From a virus: DNA of 36,090 nt. The notes under the pieces were generated by a model that was given only the letters and a program-made list of their open reading frames with translations, ran no database searches and was not told the DNA's origin. The position numbers and the translations under genes are program-made. Shown here piece after piece: positions 20,178 through 35,604 of this stretch (the first letter of the stretch is position 1; the number at the start of each line of letters is the position of its first letter). The stretch covers positions 1 to 36,090 of IMG/VR virus record IMGVR_UViG_3300045931_000399; one strand, given 5' to 3'.

Positions 20178-20450
20178 ATGCCCATCATTCAAGCCGGGAA
20201 GCAATTCACCAAAGAGGACCTGCAGCGGACCGCGGGCGATCTCGCGAGTCATCTCGTGAACTTCACGCAAGACGCGACCGATTTCGGCAGTCAGCTCGCG
20301 ACGTGGACGGATGCCGACCTGCTCGAGCTCGGGCTCGACCAGGAGGAAATCAACGCGATTAAGGGCTTTTATATCGGGGACCTGCCCGCGGTGCGCGCGG
20401 CGCTCGAGGCCTCGGCGTGGCTGCGGCAGCTGCTCGGGCTGGGCGTGTGA
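20178..20450 (+). CDS. Small acidic protein of unknown function
   Basis: A 90-aa protein with CGGGAGG upstream of ATG. Helical pattern: FTKEDLQRTAGDLASHLVNFTQ, WTDADLLELGLDQEEINAIKGFYIGDLPAVRAALEASAWLRQLLGLG. No family is recognised with certainty. It is translated with the tail genes and overlaps the next small membrane protein by 4 nt (GTGA), which suggests a role late in infection. Confidence 0.7.
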   Translation: MPIIQAGKQFTKEDLQRTAGDLASHLVNFTQDATDFGSQLATWTDADLLELGLDQEEINAIKGFYIGDLPAVRAALEASAWLRQLLGLGV

Positions 20451-22226: not shown

Positions 22227-22467
22227 CTATCTCGACTCCGACCGCTGGCGTGCTCTTCGCGCCCGCGCTCTCCATCGCGCCAACTACCGCTGCCAGTTGT
22301 GCAATGGCCAGCGTTCGTTGGAAGCGCACCATCGTACATACGTGCGCTACGGCTATGAGCTGGTCGATGATGTGACCGTGCTCTGTGCTGTCTGCCATCG
22401 TCGCCATCATGGAACGACGCGATCCGACGCGCGCATCAACGACACGCAACTGAAGCTGCCTCTCTAG
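22216..22467 (+). CDS. Small HNH endonuclease
   Basis: An 83-aa protein with the HNH fold: Cys26/Cys29 (CQLC), His38-His39 (LEAHHRTYVRYG), the conserved hydrophobic VTVLC, Cys57/Cys60 (CAVC) and His61/His64. Two zinc-binding Cys pairs frame the nuclease motif, typical of small free-standing HNH enzymes. It overlaps the preceding ORF, so the two make a unit. HNH genes of this size are often mobile or act in packaging; here it is far from terminase, which favours a mobile or anti-competitor role (inference). Confidence 0.8.
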   Translation: MPDNYLDSDRWRALRARALHRANYRCQLCNGQRSLEAHHRTYVRYGYELVDDVTVLCAVCHRRHHGTTRSDARINDTQLKLPL

Positions 22468-22775
22468 AAGTGAAGCCGTTTTCCTGGGTGGCGCTCGGTC
22501 ATCTCGAACGTCTCCACGAGCCACTGCGCGATCGGGACGTACCGCGCCCACCCGGCGGCGTCGGTGTCCTGATCGACCGCTGACAGCCTGAAGGCTAATC
22601 GCCGCACGGGATCGGCGCTGGTATCACGATAGGCGCGGAGCAGATCGATCGGCGTCGCGGGTGAGAACCGGCGCGCGACTTTCTTGCTGCGGCCGGTGAC
22701 CGGATCGGGCTCGCGGTGGTAGACGCGGAACCCGTGTGGCGTTTGGTAAATGTTCTCTTCGAGACGTGTCTCCAT
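22464..22775 (-). CDS. Free-standing copy of the integrase N-terminal domain
   Basis: A 103-aa ORF with a good ribosome-binding site (GGAGGG) before the ATG. Residues 7-51 are nearly the same as the first 53 residues of the intact integrase: shared TPHGFRVYHRE, DPVTGRSKKV, RRF, AYRD. The nucleotide match to 27027-27095 is about 83% by eye. The rest (VRRLAFRLSAVDQDTDAAGWARYVPIAQWLVETFEM) is unrelated to the integrase and ends in a normal stop. It lacks the core-binding and catalytic domains. Either it is the stump of an older integrase or a kept arm-site binding protein that modulates recombination. Confidence 0.7.
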   Translation of the reverse strand: METRLEENIYQTPHGFRVYHREPDPVTGRSKKVARRFSPATPIDLLRAYRDTSADPVRRLAFRLSAVDQDTDAAGWARYVPIAQWLVETFEMTERHPGKRLHF

Positions 22776-22955
22776 CGACCCTCCGCGTGCGGTACCTATC
22801 GATCACTTTCGCCTGTTGAGCTGAGTACCATCCAAAAACTACACAGTGAAATCCTTAGCAAAAAACCTGTACGCCATTGCCCGCTACTAGACACGCGGTA
22901 CCACCAGCCCGTGCGAAGCTACTAACGAAGGTCGGCGAATTCATTCAGGAAAAGG
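22776..22955. repeat. Gap with scattered GGTACC and ACTTTCGCC motifs
   Basis: No gene is visible. The stretch carries GGTACC at 22791-22796 and 22897-22902 and ACTTTCGCC at 22805-22813, the same motifs that mark the attachment-like repeats to the right. It looks like an eroded copy of that repeat. Confidence 0.45.
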
Positions 22956-23005
22956 TGGTGGGCGCGGCAGGATTTGAACCTGCGACCCCTCGCGTGTGAA
23001 GCGAA
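22956..23005 (-). other. tRNA-Val 3'-end fragment, likely attP core (copy 1)
   Basis: Read on the - strand: anticodon stem-loop TTCGC-TTCACAC-GCGAG (anticodon CAC, Val), variable region GGGTC, intact T arm GCAGG-TTCAAAT-CCTGC, acceptor strand CGCGCCC, discriminator A and encoded CCA. The 5' half of a tRNA (acceptor 5' strand, D arm) is missing; the sequence upstream is phage-like. This is the classic structure of an attP/attL core in which a phage carries the 3' part of its target tRNA gene. Confidence 0.8.
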
Positions 23006-23097
23006 AAACTCGCAAAATTGCTAGCAAATTCGCGACATTGGTACCGACTGGTACCAGGTTGGAACGCAAACGAATTTCTTACCGTTGGACTTTCGCC
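22956..23097 (-). repeat. Attachment-like repeat, copy R1
   Basis: A roughly 140-bp block: tRNA 3' fragment, near-palindrome around TTGCTAGCAA (23019-23028), two GGTACC hexamers (23040 and 23050, 10 bp apart) and ACTTTCGCC (23089-23097). It aligns end to end with 24670-24808 at about 84% identity by eye. Its upstream end overlaps the 3' end of a small gene whose last codons are part of the repeat. Confidence 0.8.
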
Positions 23098-23492
23098 GTC
23101 GTCGGCCAACTCAATCGTGTCGCACCATCAGCGAATGGGCGGCGCCGGCCGATGAGGAGTTGCCACGGGCTTTCTGCGAGCACGACATCAGCCTGCAAGC
23201 GCACCGGATAGTAACCAGTGGCACGTAACCGCTCACACTCCACGGGCGTGAACCATCGGAGTACAGCGTCCAGTGAGCGACACGCGGACCCGTACATCAT
23301 GGTGGTCGGCAGCGCGCGAAGCTGACTGATAGGCATGAGATCCATCACAGTTTCGGTGAGACGATCGGCTGGGGCATCACCGTCAATCCACGTCTGGCTC
23401 CAGCCGGGCCGCCAGGGTCCCCGGCCATCGGCGGCCTGCACCCGATAGACGATGATTGGGCGGCCCAATTCATTCGTCTTCGGTCTCGACAT
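23079..23492 (-). CDS. Conserved phage hypothetical protein (GRGPWRPGW motif)
   Basis: A 137-aa protein. The pattern IVYRVQAADGRGPWRPGWSQTW near the N-terminus and a later LRWFTPVECERLRATGYYPVRLQADVVLAE is one I recognise as a recurring small phage protein without known role. ATG 23492 has GAGGTG as ribosome-binding site; GTG 23498 is the alternative. The ribosome-binding site lies in the third attachment-like repeat, and the stop lies in repeat R1, so the gene is framed by two copies of the same repeat. Confidence 0.7.
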   Translation of the reverse strand: MSRPKTNELGRPIIVYRVQAADGRGPWRPGWSQTWIDGDAPADRLTETVMDLMPISQLRALPTTMMYGSACRSLDAVLRWFTPVECERLRATGYYPVRLQADVVLAESPWQLLIGRRRPFADGATRLSWPTTAKVQR

Positions 23493-23499
23493 AATCACC

Positions 23500-23603
23500 T
23501 CGTGTGAAGCGCAAACTTCGCAAATTCCCTAAGAAAACGGCCTCAAAAGGTACCATCGGTACCAAGTTGGAACCCAAACTATTCTTGCCCTGGGACTTTC
23601 GCC
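23500..23603 (-). repeat. Attachment-like repeat R2, lacking the tRNA part
   Basis: Shares with R1 and R3 the CTTCACACG-like junction, a pair of GGTACC hexamers (23549 and 23558, 9 bp apart), a GTTCCAA stretch and ACTTTCGCC (23595-23603). Homology stops at the anticodon-loop position, where R1 and R3 continue into the tRNA 3' end; here the sequence continues into the ribosome-binding site and start of the gene at 23492. Confidence 0.65.
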
Positions 23604-23800
23604 TCAGTGCGCACATAGCACTTGCGCGATAGGTCGTACTGCATCAAGTCGGGATGCTGACGCTGAAACGTCGTCAGATCCTTCGACGCTTGTGGCTGCG
23701 AAATCCCGAATTTCCGCATGAGATGTTCGCGGTTGATGAAGCCGAAGACATGAAGCGTTTCGGCGATCCATTCGAGGCGTGTCTGCTCGAACCAGTTCAT
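23579..23800 (-). CDS. Small HTH DNA-binding protein
   Basis: A 73-aa protein: WFEQTRLEWIAETLHVFGFINREHLMRKFGISQPQASKDLTTFQR is a winged-helix/DeoR-like HTH found at the N-terminus of WYL-type regulators and as free small proteins in phages. The recognition helix would be QPQASKDLTTFQ. It starts in an ATGA overlap with the upstream gene and ends inside repeat R2. Probably a regulator of the lysogeny-region genes or of the att block it overlaps; target unknown. Confidence 0.7.
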   Translation of the reverse strand: MNWFEQTRLEWIAETLHVFGFINREHLMRKFGISQPQASKDLTTFQRQHPDLMQYDLSRKCYVRTEAKVPGQE

Positions 23801-24198
23801 CGCTCTGGCGGCAGCATCTCCAGGAGCTGCTTCGCTTCATTGACACTAAGTGGTTGGGACGCCGTCTGAGCCAGCCAGGCGATCAGGGTTCCCAGCGTCC
23901 GTTTCACCGAAGCAAGTTCGGCCTGCGTTTGTAAAAGCGCCTTCTCGACTTGGGCTGGCGTCATCGGTTCCTCGCTGACGAATAGATGTGGACCAAATAG
24001 GCCGCTGTACCCGCTGACTTCTACCATGCCATCGAGTGCGACGTGCTTGACGACCAGGGGTGCAGCCCGCTCTTTGTCATTCGCGAAATAAACACGAGCG
24101 CCGACGGTCAGCCGTGGCGTCAACCCACTTGCGCCATAGTGGTGCCGCATGAATCGCTCGCTGACCGGACCATGGGGCGGCTTTGTTTTGCGCGCCAT
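23797..24198 (-). CDS. Hypothetical protein with C-terminal coiled coil
   Basis: A 133-aa protein with GAGGAG upstream. Residues about 25-75 are beta-rich (GARVYFANDKERAAPLVVKHVALDGMVEVSGYSGLFGPHLFV); residues 78-133 are a coiled coil (PAQVEKALLQTQAELASVKRTLGTLIAWLAQ). No recognised family. It overlaps both neighbours by 1-4 nt and so belongs to a translationally coupled - strand set. Confidence 0.65.
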   Translation of the reverse strand: MARKTKPPHGPVSERFMRHHYGASGLTPRLTVGARVYFANDKERAAPLVVKHVALDGMVEVSGYSGLFGPHLFVSEEPMTPAQVEKALLQTQAELASVKRTLGTLIAWLAQTASQPLSVNEAKQLLEMLPPER

Positions 24199-24503
24199 CA
24201 CAACTCCTCGAAGGCATGGCAGCGACCGCAGTACCTGTGCTCGCGGTCGTGCGGATTGAAGGAGACGGCGCCGCAGCGCGGGCAGCAGTACGGCGCCCCA
24301 CGGTCCATCGCATCGACCAGCGGCAGGGCGCATTCATTCGGTCGCACCACGTAGCGATTGGCATCCGCCACGATCTGGTTCGCTTCCGACTCTGGGTAGC
24401 GGCCGGCCTGGGCGAGATCCGCCACGTAGCCCATGCGCCCCGGCCCCCACCAGGCGTCATGCTCGAAGGACCAGATCACGAATGGATAGAAGCCCCGCGA
24501 CAT
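24198..24503 (-). CDS. WSFEHDAWW-family phage protein with zinc ribbon
   Basis: A 101-aa protein. The N-terminal half (FYPFVIWSFEHDAWWGPGRMGYVADLAQAGRY...NQIVADANRY) is clearly paralogous to the early gene at 35383-35604. The C-terminal half adds a zinc ribbon CCPRC...YCGRC (two Cys pairs). I prefer ATG 24503, which has GGAGGG at a good distance; ATG 24578 also has a strong GGGAGGT and would add 25 residues of unlike composition. Function unknown. Confidence 0.7.
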   Translation of the reverse strand: MSRGFYPFVIWSFEHDAWWGPGRMGYVADLAQAGRYPESEANQIVADANRYVVRPNECALPLVDAMDRGAPYCCPRCGAVSFNPHDREHRYCGRCHAFEEL

Positions 24504-24582
24504 CTGTTTCCCTCCACGTCGGCCATTGGGATTGAACCACGCGCCCACACTGCGCGGCGACCACCGAGCGCGAGACATGGTC

Positions 24583-24606
24583 CTACCTCCCGCGAAAGCG
24601 CAACAC
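24583..24606 (-). pseudogene. Possible remnant of an integrase 3' end (VLRFRGR-stop)
   Basis: Reads GTG TTG CGC TTT CGC GGG AGG TAG on the - strand, giving VLRFRGR and a stop. The intact integrase ends with the same seven residues, and 20 nt are identical between 24587-24606 and 25993-26012. In both places a small gene starts within a few bases, with the GGGAG of the last codons serving as its ribosome-binding site. The frame is open upstream for about 29 codons but does not otherwise match the integrase. Confidence 0.4.
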
Positions 24607-24669
24607 GTCGCCCTCGTGCGCCAATTCTAAATAGACCGTTTTCGTAGCATCGGCCTCGCGAACTTTTTG

Positions 24670-24717
24670 TGGTGGGCGCGGCTGGAATCGAACCACCGAC
24701 CCCTCGCGTGTAGCGAA
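24670..24717 (-). other. Degenerate tRNA 3'-end fragment (copy 2)
   Basis: On the - strand it retains the acceptor strand CGCGCCC, A and CCA, the T loop TTCGATT, and GGGGTC. One T-stem pair is broken (GGTGG against CCAGC) and the anticodon loop is two bases short relative to copy 1. It is an older or decayed sister of the fragment at 22956-23005. Confidence 0.65.
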
Positions 24718-24808
24718 AAACTCGCGTTTTTGCTAGCAAATTTGCGACATTGGTAACGCCTGGTACCACCTTGGGACGCAAACGAATGTCACGCCTCGGA
24801 CTTTCGCC
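24670..24808 (-). repeat. Attachment-like repeat, copy R3
   Basis: Same order as R1: tRNA fragment, TTGCTAGCAAATT near-palindrome, GGTAAC (24752) and GGTACC (24762) 10 bp apart, CGCAAACGAAT, ACTTTCGCC (24800-24808). Overlaps the 3' end of the next small - strand gene, as R1 and R2 do. Confidence 0.8.
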
Positions 24809-25094
24809 TCTGCCGGCGGTGATACTCCGCAACGGCGGCGAGGAAGGTTTCTCGTTCAATGAACGAGATTCGGGTGTAGCCCTCACGCTTCGCGATTTCT
24901 CGCTCACCGAGCATGATCTGGCCTGCGCCTCCCCAGATGGACAGGCCATTCAGTGCCGTGACTTCATGCGGAGCAGTGGCGAAATGCAGCCGGGATTGCC
25001 CGCGCGATCCTTCTGGGACGCGGTCGCAGAGATGCAACACGCCTGAGCCGTCTTCGTGCAGTTCCACATACGCCACGTTGGCATCAATCGCCAT
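24789..25094 (-). CDS. Conserved phage hypothetical protein (MAIDANVAYVE)
   Basis: A 101-aa protein: AIDANVAYVELHEDGSGVLHLCDR, PHEVTALNGLSIWGGAGQIMLGEREIAKREGYTRISFIE. I recognise the pattern as a recurring small phage protein with no known role. ATG has GAGAGGCGAC upstream. The final codons (RRQRRKSEA) are formed by the ACTTTCGCC end of repeat R3. Confidence 0.7.
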   Translation of the reverse strand: MAIDANVAYVELHEDGSGVLHLCDRVPEGSRGQSRLHFATAPHEVTALNGLSIWGGAGQIMLGEREIAKREGYTRISFIERETFLAAVAEYHRRQRRKSEA

Positions 25095-25138
25095 GTCGCC
25101 TCTCCGAAATGTTTCCTTCAGACTTCAGGAAGTTTCCT

Positions 25139-25312
25139 TCAGACTTTCATCGGCTCGGTCTGAATTATTGCTTGCCGACTTTCGCCCTCTCCAGAAACGG
25201 CCGTGCGCACGGCTCGAAGTGGATACGGCTTTGCGTCCGGATCGAACCATTCGGTGTACCACCACATGTGCCCGTCGTACTGCATCGGCGGGATACGAGC
25301 CTTTCGTTTCAT
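25139..25312 (-). CDS. Short hypothetical protein
   Basis: A 57-aa protein (KRKARIPPMQYDGHMWWYTEWFDPDAKPYPLRAVRTA) of a type seen next to similar small phage genes. Start at 25312 is preferred over the upstream in-frame ATG at 25375, although its ribosome-binding site is weak. Its 3' part contains a fifth ACTTTCGCC (25178-25186). No domain is recognised. Confidence 0.45.
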   Translation of the reverse strand: MKRKARIPPMQYDGHMWWYTEWFDPDAKPYPLRAVRTAVSGEGESRQAIIQTEPMKV

Positions 25313-25374
25313 GGCTGTTAGAAGAATTAGAATTACGAACTTTTTACCAGCCCGACGAGTTCGGCCGGCGAACA

Positions 25375-25572
25375 TTAGTCGTTGAGCGGCGGCGCGTCAT
25401 CATCCGCCAGCGTGGCCTCAACCGCCTCTTCGTAGTACACCCGCAAGGCGCGGAAGACCTCGGGTTCCAGATAGATCGTATCCGTGGCCTCGATGCCGTT
25501 CTCCGCGGTGAGCTTCAACATCCCACGCTCAACTGCGACATACACGCCGTCACCGAGGTATCGCTTGGTCAT
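25375..25572 (-). CDS. Small conserved phage protein (RYLGDGVYV)
   Basis: A 65-aa protein: KRYLGDGVYVAVERGMLKLTAENGIEATDTIYLEPEVFRALRVYYEEAV is a pattern I have seen in many phage and plasmid small proteins of unknown function; mostly beta with a final helix. Its ATG overlaps the stop of the upstream gene by 4 nt, so both are translated together. Confidence 0.7.
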   Translation of the reverse strand: MTKRYLGDGVYVAVERGMLKLTAENGIEATDTIYLEPEVFRALRVYYEEAVEATLADDDAPPLND

Positions 25573-25985
25573 TGCGGGCGCACCACGTCGCGGCTGCCCT
25601 GCCGCAGTTCGCGCAAATCGAGCAGGATGGTGCCTTGTCGATGGGCATCGTCAATCCCGACTTTCTCGAGCAGCTTGATGGTGATTTCGTCGGAGATAGC
25701 GGCCTCGCTGCCCTGCAGCAGCATCAGCCCAATCTCGCGAGCCTTCGCGGCGTCCATCTGCGTCAGCGTTTCGTTGATGGTCAGTTCGACGAACCCGCGC
25801 CGGCTGCTATGCCCGAAGCCAGAGCTGACCGTCACGCTGTCGCTGCCGCCGGGCGCATCGACACGGCCCTTGTGCTTGAGGGCGCCTAGAGCCTGTTCCC
25901 GGAATTTGTCGCGCAGCTTCTCTGAGACGCCAATGACCTGCAGCATCGCGAGCACTTCATCCAGTACCAGTAACGTTCGTGCCAT
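25569..25985 (-). CDS. Hypothetical protein downstream of integrase
   Basis: A 138-aa protein with an N-terminal helical part (VLDEVLAMLQVIGVSEKLRDKFREQALGAL) and a middle beta segment (RGFVELTINETLTQMDAAKAREIGLMLLQGSEAAISDEITIKLL). No family is recognised. It starts 3 bp after the integrase stop and uses the GGGAG within the last integrase codons as ribosome-binding site, so it is co-expressed with the integrase. A directionality or control role is possible but unsupported. Confidence 0.65.
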   Translation of the reverse strand: MARTLLVLDEVLAMLQVIGVSEKLRDKFREQALGALKHKGRVDAPGGSDSVTVSSGFGHSSRRGFVELTINETLTQMDAAKAREIGLMLLQGSEAAISDEITIKLLEKVGIDDAHRQGTILLDLRELRQGSRDVVRPQ

Positions 25986-25988
25986 TCG

Positions 25989-27122
25989 TCATCTCCCGCG
26001 AAAGCGCAACACGCCGGCCGTGCGGCGCTGCGTGGACGCCGCGACCTTGGCCATCTGCGTCCGCAGCACCGTGGGCACCGCCCCGAGGCTATAGCGGATC
26101 GTCATCGGTGACCCGGGCGCGTGCTGCAGCATCTGCGCGACCGTCGTGAGGTCGCCGGTCTCTTCGAACGTCTTCGTCCCGAACGAGTGCCGCAGGTCCT
26201 TGATGCGGATGTGCGGGATCTTGAAGTCGGGATCCTTGTATTCGATCTGCAACTGCTTCTCGACGCGCCGACAGGCGGCGTGCCACGTCTTCGTGAGCGC
26301 CTGCACCGAGAATGGTCCCCAGCCGTCGCAGGCGATGAGCCGCTGAAAGGCTTTCACCCCCTCGGGCAGCAGCGGCAGCCGCACCACGGGCCGCGGCGTG
26401 CGCCGGCGCCGCGCGCCCTTGCGGCGGAAGGGCGGCGTATACCACTGCGCGACGAGGTCGAGATCCGTCGCCGGATCCATGCGCATCAACTGCCCCGGAT
26501 CCATCCCGGTCCACGCCAGCACCTCGAGCCGCGCGCCGGACTTCTCGCCATTCAACCGGCCGCGCTGCTTCGTGTGCGTGCACGGGATGTCCGCCAGGAT
26601 GGCCGTCAGCAGCTCGTAGTCGTGGCCCCGCGCGGTGAGCTTGGCCTCCTCGAACATCACGGCATCGCGCACCGGATTCGCGGCGCTGCGCCCGTCGAGC
26701 AACGTCCAGACATGCATGAGGGCCGTTCTGAATTTGTTGACGCTGGAGTTACTGTGGCCGGCTTTGCGCAGCGTGTGAAGTTCTTCATTGATGCGCGTCG
26801 TCGTAATGTCGGCGCGCGGCGTGTCCTTGAAGAGGTCGTCCCAGGCGTCGAGCTCGTAGAGGCGCGTCTTGATGGCGGGCATCGCCTTGACCTGCTCGAG
26901 CGCGCGGTAGCGGCGCGTGTCGGCGCGAAAGCCGGTGTCCTCCTCGTACGCTGCAACCTCGATCTGGTCGCGGTACGCCTGGAGCTGCGCGAGCGTATGG
27001 CCGGGGCCGAAGCGCCGCCCGACTTTTTTGCTGCGGCCGGTGACGGGATCGATCTCGCGGTGGTAGACGCGGAAGCCGTGCGGGGTCTTCCAGATGTTGG
27101 GGGCGATGCGGACGTCACCCAT
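25989..27122 (-). CDS. int: Tyrosine recombinase (integrase) with atypical active site
   Basis: A 377-aa integrase starting at ATG 27122 (GAGGAG upstream). Residues 1-55 are the arm-type DNA-binding domain (TPHGFRVYHRE...GRSKKVGRRF). About 60-180 is the core-binding SAM-like domain (NEELHTLRKAGHSNSSVNKFRTALMHVWTLL). The catalytic domain follows: the box I position reads TGMDPGQLMRM where the family has G-x-R; box II reads KDLRHSFGT (Lys for the usual His, Arg kept); then LQHAPGSPMTIRYS with the later His and the nucleophile Tyr. The first catalytic Arg is thus replaced by Asp by my alignment. It may be a divergent subfamily or a damaged enzyme. The tRNA 3' fragments nearby fit its expected target. 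Confidence 0.88.
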   Translation of the reverse strand: MGDVRIAPNIWKTPHGFRVYHREIDPVTGRSKKVGRRFGPGHTLAQLQAYRDQIEVAAYEEDTGFRADTRRYRALEQVKAMPAIKTRLYELDAWDDLFKDTPRADITTTRINEELHTLRKAGHSNSSVNKFRTALMHVWTLLDGRSAANPVRDAVMFEEAKLTARGHDYELLTAILADIPCTHTKQRGRLNGEKSGARLEVLAWTGMDPGQLMRMDPATDLDLVAQWYTPPFRRKGARRRRTPRPVVRLPLLPEGVKAFQRLIACDGWGPFSVQALTKTWHAACRRVEKQLQIEYKDPDFKIPHIRIKDLRHSFGTKTFEETGDLTTVAQMLQHAPGSPMTIRYSLGAVPTVLRTQMAKVAASTQRRTAGVLRFRGR

Positions 27123-34981: not shown

Positions 34982-35383
34982 ATGTCATCACCGCTGACGA
35001 TTCACACCACCCTCGCCTACGAGACCATCGACTGCTACAAGTGCGGCGTCACGTTTGCCGTGGCGGCCTCCCTGCGGGCGAATTGGGTCCGCGACAAGAC
35101 GCAGTTCTTCTGCCCGAACGGCCACAGCCAGAGCTACGCCGAAAACGAAGCCGACCGCTTGCGGAAGCAGCTCACGACGGCGACGGCGGAGGTCGATCGG
35201 CAACGACAACTGCGCATCAAAGCCGAGCAGCGCATGAGCGCCCAGATCGCGGTCAACACGAAACTCCGCAAGCGCATGAACGCCGGCGTGTGTCCCCATT
35301 GCCACCGCACCGTCAGCCAGATGGCGCGCCACATCAAAAGCAAACATCCCGAAGTGCACACGACGCCGCCAAGGTTGGTGTGA
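34982..35383 (+). CDS. Double zinc-finger phage protein
   Basis: A 133-aa protein. First zinc site: Cys18, Cys21 (DCYKCG), Cys44, His48 (FFCPNGHSQ). Middle: coiled coil 55-98. Second: C2H2-like Cys104, Cys107, His117, His122 (CPHCHRTVSQMARHIKSKH). This two-finger layout is a recurring phage protein that probably binds nucleic acid; its exact role is unknown. The stop overlaps the next start (TGATG). Confidence 0.75.
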   Translation: MSSPLTIHTTLAYETIDCYKCGVTFAVAASLRANWVRDKTQFFCPNGHSQSYAENEADRLRKQLTTATAEVDRQRQLRIKAEQRMSAQIAVNTKLRKRMNAGVCPHCHRTVSQMARHIKSKHPEVHTTPPRLV

Positions 35384-35604
35384 TGTCTGATCGTGTCTAC
35401 GTGATCTGGTCCTTCGAACACGATGCCTGGTGGAAGCCCCATCGTCTCGGCTACACCCTCGAGATCGAGGAGGCTGGGCACTACTCAGCAGATGAGGCCA
35501 ACGAGATCGTGGATAACGCGAATCGCTTCCAACCGCATGAGTACGAGCGCGCCATCTTGCTCGAGGATGCGCGCAAGGTTGGACCGCCGATCAAGGACGC
35601 CTGA
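35383..35604 (+). CDS. WSFEHDAWW-family phage protein
   Basis: A 73-aa protein: SDRVYVIWSFEHDAWWKPHRLGYTLEIEEAGHYSADEANEIVDNANRFQPHEYERAILLEDA. It shares VIWSFEHDAWW, GY, AG.Y, ANEIV.NANR with 24198-24503 on the other strand, but lacks the zinc ribbon. Starts in the previous stop and overlaps the HNH start by one base. Confidence 0.7.
   Translation: MSDRVYVIWSFEHDAWWKPHRLGYTLEIEEAGHYSADEANEIVDNANRFQPHEYERAILLEDARKVGPPIKDA

Follow-up and report, generated by a model that had tools for sequence, protein, structure and literature searches.

How did a single phage genome come to hold more than one copy of the 3' half of the same tRNA gene, and what are the small genes that lie between the copies? 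This question was raised by a window of 36,090 bases, which is the whole IMG/VR record IMGVR_UViG_3300045931_000399. All data behind the window and its relatives are metagenomic contigs without hosts. The initial annotation had interpreted two blocks in this window as stacked attachment sites (attPs), and this interpretation turned out to be well supported: the attP anatomy is common to a second phage (L005) with another tRNA, and several relatives contain both a current and a relic attP.

Organization of the repeated blocks

In a BLAST comparison, the two blocks (attP1 and attP2; Table 1) share 83.8% identity over 142 bp (E=2e-38), in agreement with the match of about 84% over about 140 bp that had been reported. 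On the minus strand, both blocks follow the same order, which is GGCGAAAGTCC, a spacer in which the upstream small gene has its stop codon, two GGTACC-type hexamers at a distance of 10 bp, an AT-rich near-palindrome around TTGCTAGCAA, and the 3' half of tRNA-Val(CAC), including the anticodon stem-loop, the T-arm, the acceptor strand and the encoded CCA. The tRNA 3' part to the CCA, the near-palindrome and the paired hexamers (GGTACC at 23040 and 23050; GGTAAC at 24752 with GGTACC at 24762) had all been pointed out in the initial annotation, and all of them are real. GGTACC pairs spaced 8-12 bp occur twice in the window versus 0 in 500 shuffles, while ACTTTCGCC has 5 occurrences (expected 0.39), all within 22805-25186. 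The homology between attP1 and attP2 has functional edges, as it begins at GGCGAAAGTCC/GGCGAAAGT and ends at the tRNA 3' end CCA(C).

The description of two copies was correct and incomplete. A third, truncated copy (attP3) had been missed, together with the P'-side GGTACC sites at 22791 and 22897 and a paralogue of the integrase N-terminus. An assembly artefact was rejected, given that the similarity of the copies is just 84% and 75%. No complete tRNA gene exists in the window and no Rfam family matches the blocks, so that a known RNA family or a complete tRNA was rejected as their identity. Besides the blocks, there is a lone boundary motif, GGCGAAAGTC, which is rare across the fetched loci, yet close to attP in the window (22805-25186), in L019 (6245) and in L035 (8245). 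It is perhaps the site of an accessory protein.

Table 1. Features of the integrase-attP locus in the window (strand "." means that no strand is assigned)
Feature	Position	Strand	Basis or remark
Integrase N-terminal paralogue, stand-alone ORF of 103 aa (putative arm-binding domain), C-terminus unrelated	22464..22775	-	self-comparison
attP1 P' side: GGTACC 22791-22796 and 22897-22902, GGCGAAAGT (- strand) 22805-22813	22791..22902	.	core of L005 likewise flanked by GGTACC on either side
attP1: GGCGAAAGTCC, GGTACC arm pair, AT-rich CTAGCAATTTT segment, tRNA-Val(CAC) 3' half to CCA	22956..23097	-	same layout in L005
attP1 P-side arm pair GGTACC-4-GGTACC, putative integrase arm-type sites	23040..23055	.	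arm pair tracks integrase family in relatives
g8, between attP3 and attP1; final codons inside the attP1 element	23079..23498	-	PHROG 1106, function unknown there
attP3, probable relic, truncated after GGCGAAAGTCC, GGTACC pair (spacing 9) and anticodon loop TTCACAC	23499..23606	-	74.5% partial copy
g7; final codons (AKVPGQE) supplied by the attP3 element	23579..23800	-	L023 homologue lacks these codons
g6, no assigned function	23797..24216	-	ORF
g5, C-terminal CxxC motifs (zinc-ribbon-like by eye)	24198..24578	-	homologues in L010, L021, L023, L024
34-bp copy of integrase 3' end and ribosome-binding region (VLRFRGR*), adjoins attP2	24587..24620	-	repeat of 25993-26024; 88%, E=6e-4, modest (self-comparison)
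attP2, probable relic: layout as attP1, one arm hexamer mutated, no P' arm	24670..24808	-	84% to attP1
g4; final codons inside the attP2 element	24789..25094	-	ORF
Lone GGCGAAAGTC boundary motif	25177..25186	-	near 3' end of gene 25139-25375
g1, directly 3' of the integrase gene	25569..25985	-	related sequence near the integrase gene in L039, L042, L053 (weak, via antisense frame)
Tyrosine integrase, 388 aa	25989..27155	-	PHROG 1 integrase, E=7e-15; 43% to L005 integrase

The integrase and its arm-type sites

According to the PHROG match, a tyrosine integrase gene is present in the same region as the attP blocks. The protein matches Pfam PF00589 with E=2e-4, below the curated cut-off, and its structure model, made from a two-sequence alignment, is poor (pLDDT 47).

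In the viral collection, the only close relative of this integrase is that of L005 (43% identity). At the end of the L005 integrase gene there are two GGTACC sites and CTAGCAATTTT, followed by the anticodon stem and the 3' half of tRNA-Arg(CCT) to CCA; past the CCA come a hairpin and three more GGTACC sites. The distance from CTAGCAATTTT to the anticodon stem is 20 bp in L005 and 19 bp in the window. Because L005 shares this layout although the tRNA differs (Arg versus Val), the blocks are regarded as attP sites. A scan of the viral collection for the arrangement shared by L005 and the window returned the contig of L005 alone.

For a wider comparison we used the phages sharing the tail gene at 20178-20450. 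Each of six integrase families in this group has a tandem arm pair of its own next to the tRNA half: it is GGCTACCAGTCA in L024, L027 and L030, GGCTGGCA in L019, L010 and L029, GTTCCCG in L022, TTGGTAGT in L014 and AAGTTGCCAGG in L035. Each arm type in the group goes with one integrase family. Judged from these comparisons, the integrase family in the window very likely has GGTACC as its arm-type site.

The paralogue of 103 aa, which sits just beyond the P' arm of attP1, resembles the integrase N-terminus over about 50-60 residues. Its model shows a plausible beta-sheet-plus-helix N-terminal domain (pLDDT 74-92). Foldseek found no significant match in PDB, so the domain is not confirmed, and a sequence search of solved structures gave no match. 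Compared with the integrase, the best conserved 28 codons have 7 synonymous and 3 non-synonymous differences, while over 45 codons there are 11 synonymous versus 15 non-synonymous differences; these numbers only hint that the paralogue may have retained a function.

The tRNA half had no match in genomes (one for each of 84,980 species) or in viral contigs, and the searches yielded neither a host genome nor a prophage nor an intact tRNA that matches. There were no close relatives by DNA among GenBank phages and none by integrase in phages, plasmids and genomes. Among viral contigs, no exact match of the blocks and no near-identical phage turned up.

One probable working site and two probable relics

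attP1 has an intact anticodon stem-loop (TTCGC-TTCACAC-GCGAG) and an intact T-arm (GCAGG TTCAAAT CCTGC), corresponding to the tRNA-Val(CAC) allele GCAGGTTCAAATCCTGC, and it is the only site with arm-type repeats on both sides of the core. Since no other copy combines an intact anticodon loop with arms on both sides, attP1 (22790-23097 with the P' arms) is probably the working attP of the phage. One observation stands against this: in the relatives the current attP is usually integrase-proximal, whereas here the intact site is tail-proximal, about 2.9 kb from the integrase gene.

The other two sites have a P-side arm only, without a P' arm, and are probably relics. In attP2, the anticodon loop TTCACAC has become TACAC by a 2-nt deletion and the T-stem has one mismatch, which agrees with the broken T stem and anticodon loop that the initial annotation had stated for its copy 2. 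The T-arm of attP2 (GGTGG TTCGATT CCAGC) differs from that of attP1 and includes a compensated A-T to T-A change. It looks like another (host) tRNA allele, and the predicted source is a tRNA-Val(CAC) allele of the GCTGGTTCGATTCCAGC form. The DNA past the CCA of attP2 is unrelated to that past attP1. As for attP3, it stops after the anticodon loop, while attP1 and attP2 run through CCA, and its end serves as the leader of g8. Breakpoints just 3' of the anticodon loop are found in attP3, L010 and L041, a hint that this position may mark the exchange point, with three cases being too few to claim it.

Small genes between the sites

The genes g5-g8 form a segment that has no integrase of its own and has att sites on either side (attP2 and attP1). 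The homologue of g7 in L023 (72%) has no attP3 element, which provides a partial presence/absence comparison. The similarity of the two genes ends at the residues RT, just before GGCGAAAGT, which means that the gene existed first and the attP3 element was attached to its end. Generally, homologues of the genes between the sites stand in other orders in other phages; because they have phage homologues, these genes need not derive from host flanks. The earlier proposal that the 1.7 kb between the two copies is one previously integrated cassette is thus too simple, as this segment holds a further attP relic and genes that are reordered in other phages.

A paralogue of g5 was also seen at 35356-35604 on the opposite strand, and the homologues in L010, L021 and L024 lie far downstream of the tail gene.

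Relic sites and arm arrays in related phages

The related phages contain a similar layering. Next to the tail gene, an attP-Ala has been retained by L014, L015, L018, L019, L022, L035/36, L039, L053 and L054, and the Ala-type integrase is present in L015, L018, L022, L039, L053 and L054. The integrases of L014, L019 and L035/36 belong to three other families that come with attPs of their own, and attP-Ala is a relic in these phages. Its loop is changed in two of these three relics (L014 and L035), and it is intact in L019 and where the Ala integrase is present. Besides, L010 has a tRNA-Met half-attP of the L024 type next to a tRNA-Ser-like attP, and L042 keeps a tRNA-Met half-attP alongside attP-Ala. 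As L014, L019, L035/36, L010 and L042 hold an old attP in addition to another integrase-attP module, at least 5 related phages are stacked.

Some relatives also repeat the arm without the rest of the site. A 45-bp element, composed of the L024-type P arm and CCACRTTGGCGGGGC, lies between small genes in L010, L024, L029, L031 and L032 (nhmmer E down to 4e-16). In most cases the upstream stop codon is inside the element and the next start codon follows just after it. At the attPs of L027 and L031, the element is followed by a tRNA-Met anticodon arm, while the array elements of L024, L010, L029 and L032 have no tRNA core. Many of the L024-type elements are just upstream of starts; in the window only attP3 is near a start. 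The window has an array of this kind too, built with a different arm sequence. Small genes recur near the elements in differing contexts, such as C2 (L024, L031, L032), C5 (L024, L010) and C6 (L029, L041). This reuse is most simply explained by homologous exchange at the shared elements.

The elements span 11708-13190 in L024, 11799-12880 in L010 and 4515-5610 in L029, and they are often followed by a mini-ORF, for example MTAVIRPSTV*.

Origin of the stacked sites

From the comparison of sequences, we propose, with a probability of about 0.6, that the attP blocks are scars of successive recombination at the integrase-attP locus, either by accretion or by module exchange, in which small genes were trapped. 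The tyrosine integrase family of the phage would target the 3' half of tRNA-Val(CAC); the integrase may bind the GGTACC arm sites on both sides of attP1, with the anticodon loop as the place of strand exchange. attP2 and attP3 would be left from earlier recombination at the same locus. Their form, a P arm and a tRNA half with foreign DNA straight after, would be that of an attR, in which an old prophage end is joined to flanking DNA. In this scenario a related prophage or remnant was present at the same tRNA gene when an ancestor inserted beside it or recombined with it; the ancestor then left as a composite, by which the small genes between the sites would have been gained while the inner site stayed as a scar. 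The relatives show a parallel process between different integrases, in which a new integrase-attP module takes the place of its predecessor and the older attP persists as its tail-side half. In line with accretion, attP2 has one arm, a tRNA half and foreign DNA past the CCA, as an inner att site of an accretion composite does. Against it, the L024-type array elements have no tRNA core, which accretion alone leaves unexplained. The proposal as a whole is also weakened by the fact that just one other phage with this integrase type (L005) was found and that the 34-bp repeat is modestly significant.

A plain duplication of one attP within the phage through illegitimate or homologous recombination, after which one copy decayed and the small genes were inserted later and independently, would fit the 84% identity, the shared orientation and the damage in one copy, and an integrase 5' piece and a 3'-end repeat are duplicated nearby as well. 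Nevertheless, we consider it unlikely. The edges of the duplicate match the functional edges (GGCGAAAGT and CCA) with no homology past them, a compensated pair such as that in the T-arm is rarely produced by decay alone, and relatives stack attPs for different tRNAs, which is impossible by duplication. The suggestion in the initial annotation that attP had been duplicated so that one copy could decay therefore holds in part: copy 1 looks complete and copy 2 is damaged, while a simple duplication is less likely because attP2 has the T-arm of another allele with a compensated pair, unrelated DNA past its CCA and no P' arm.

The blocks might instead be regulatory units, with the integrase or the 103-aa paralogue binding the arm pairs and controlling the small genes, and attP recruited as an operator. 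Arm pairs are placed between genes both in the window and in L010, L024, L029, L031 and L032, mostly with the upstream stop inside and the next start just after, as would be expected of such units, and the significance of the 45-bp elements and the excess of synonymous differences in the 28 conserved codons of the paralogue point the same way. Yet the attP region of the window has no promoter-like or terminator-like enrichment, an arm hexamer of copy 2 is mutated, tRNA halves have no obvious regulatory use and the paralogue is without a structure match, which makes this explanation rather improbable. An integron-like system, in which gene-plus-att units enter and leave these sites through the action of the integrase, is very improbable, even though the same small genes (the C2, C5 and C6 sets) lie near elements across phages and genes end inside the element. 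The L024-type array elements keep arms without a core, so that a tyrosine integrase has nothing to cut in them; the different loops of attP1 and attP2 should block exchange between these two sites; and homologous recombination through the shared element suffices. A bolder idea, and a long shot, is that temperate phages of this group carry working small-gene arrays between attP-arm copies, whose genes are controlled or rearranged by a detached arm-binding domain or by the integrase. If it were true, an attachment site would have been turned into a platform for gene gain and expression.

Comparison with known systems

attPs at tRNAs, arm pairs and island accretion are already known. In mycobacteriophages CrimD, Pixie, Giles and L5, as described in PMC3203893, the tyrosine-integrase attP lies at the 3' end of a tRNA or tmRNA gene and has 11-bp arm-site pairs. 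As in the window, the core is a tRNA 3' end, short arm pairs adjoin it, the integrase is near, and one group contains differing integrases and cores; unlike in the window, where there are one complete and two incomplete attPs, the descriptions there are of one attP per genome. Site-specific accretion at tRNA genes, known from ICE/IME tandems and CIMEs, leaves inner att sites in composites (PMC5704250). It is similar in that an element without integration genes but with att sites is joined to a relative at the same target, and different in that chromosomal ICEs, IMEs and islands are involved, whereas here decayed inner sites stand about 0.4-1.1 kb apart in a virus record. The tandem ssrA islands of Dehalococcoides also record repeated integration in many copies of an RNA-gene 3' end with variable cargo between them, but they are chromosomal, their integrase is related to staphylococcal cassette recombinases, and their 20 bp repeats have no arm pairs (PMC3146451).

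With regard to the arrays, the start-associated sequences of cluster K mycobacteriophages are likewise short repeats between small phage genes and next to starts; in PMC3203893 they are not described as attP-related, whereas the repeats here carry an attP arm pair. Integron cassette arrays, too, consist of small genes each followed by a recombination-site-like repeat. An integron has a recombinable site for each cassette, whereas the elements of L024, L010, L029 and L032 are coreless, their repeat being the attP arm of the phage itself. A literature search, which covered open-access papers and is a weak one, found no report of stacked attPs in one phage genome, and the open-access literature gave no description of relic attPs after integrase change in a phage group or of arm-derived elements between small genes.

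The layering also occurs in related viruses, so that past swaps of the insertion machinery and the pickup of genes can be read from these loci. Relic attPs reveal the former tRNA targets and integrases of a lineage from phage sequence alone, so that a count of target switches needs no host genomes. The layering also marks the integrase-attP locus as a place where genes were gained again and again, and makes the choice between accretion and homologous exchange via shared att elements one that lysogens can test. It is also a warning for annotation, as a tRNA 3' half in a phage need not mark the current attP.

Away from the locus, near-perfect palindromes of 30-32 bp were observed at 682-711 and 776-807, inside the gene at 37-1251, which is methyltransferase-like by eye.
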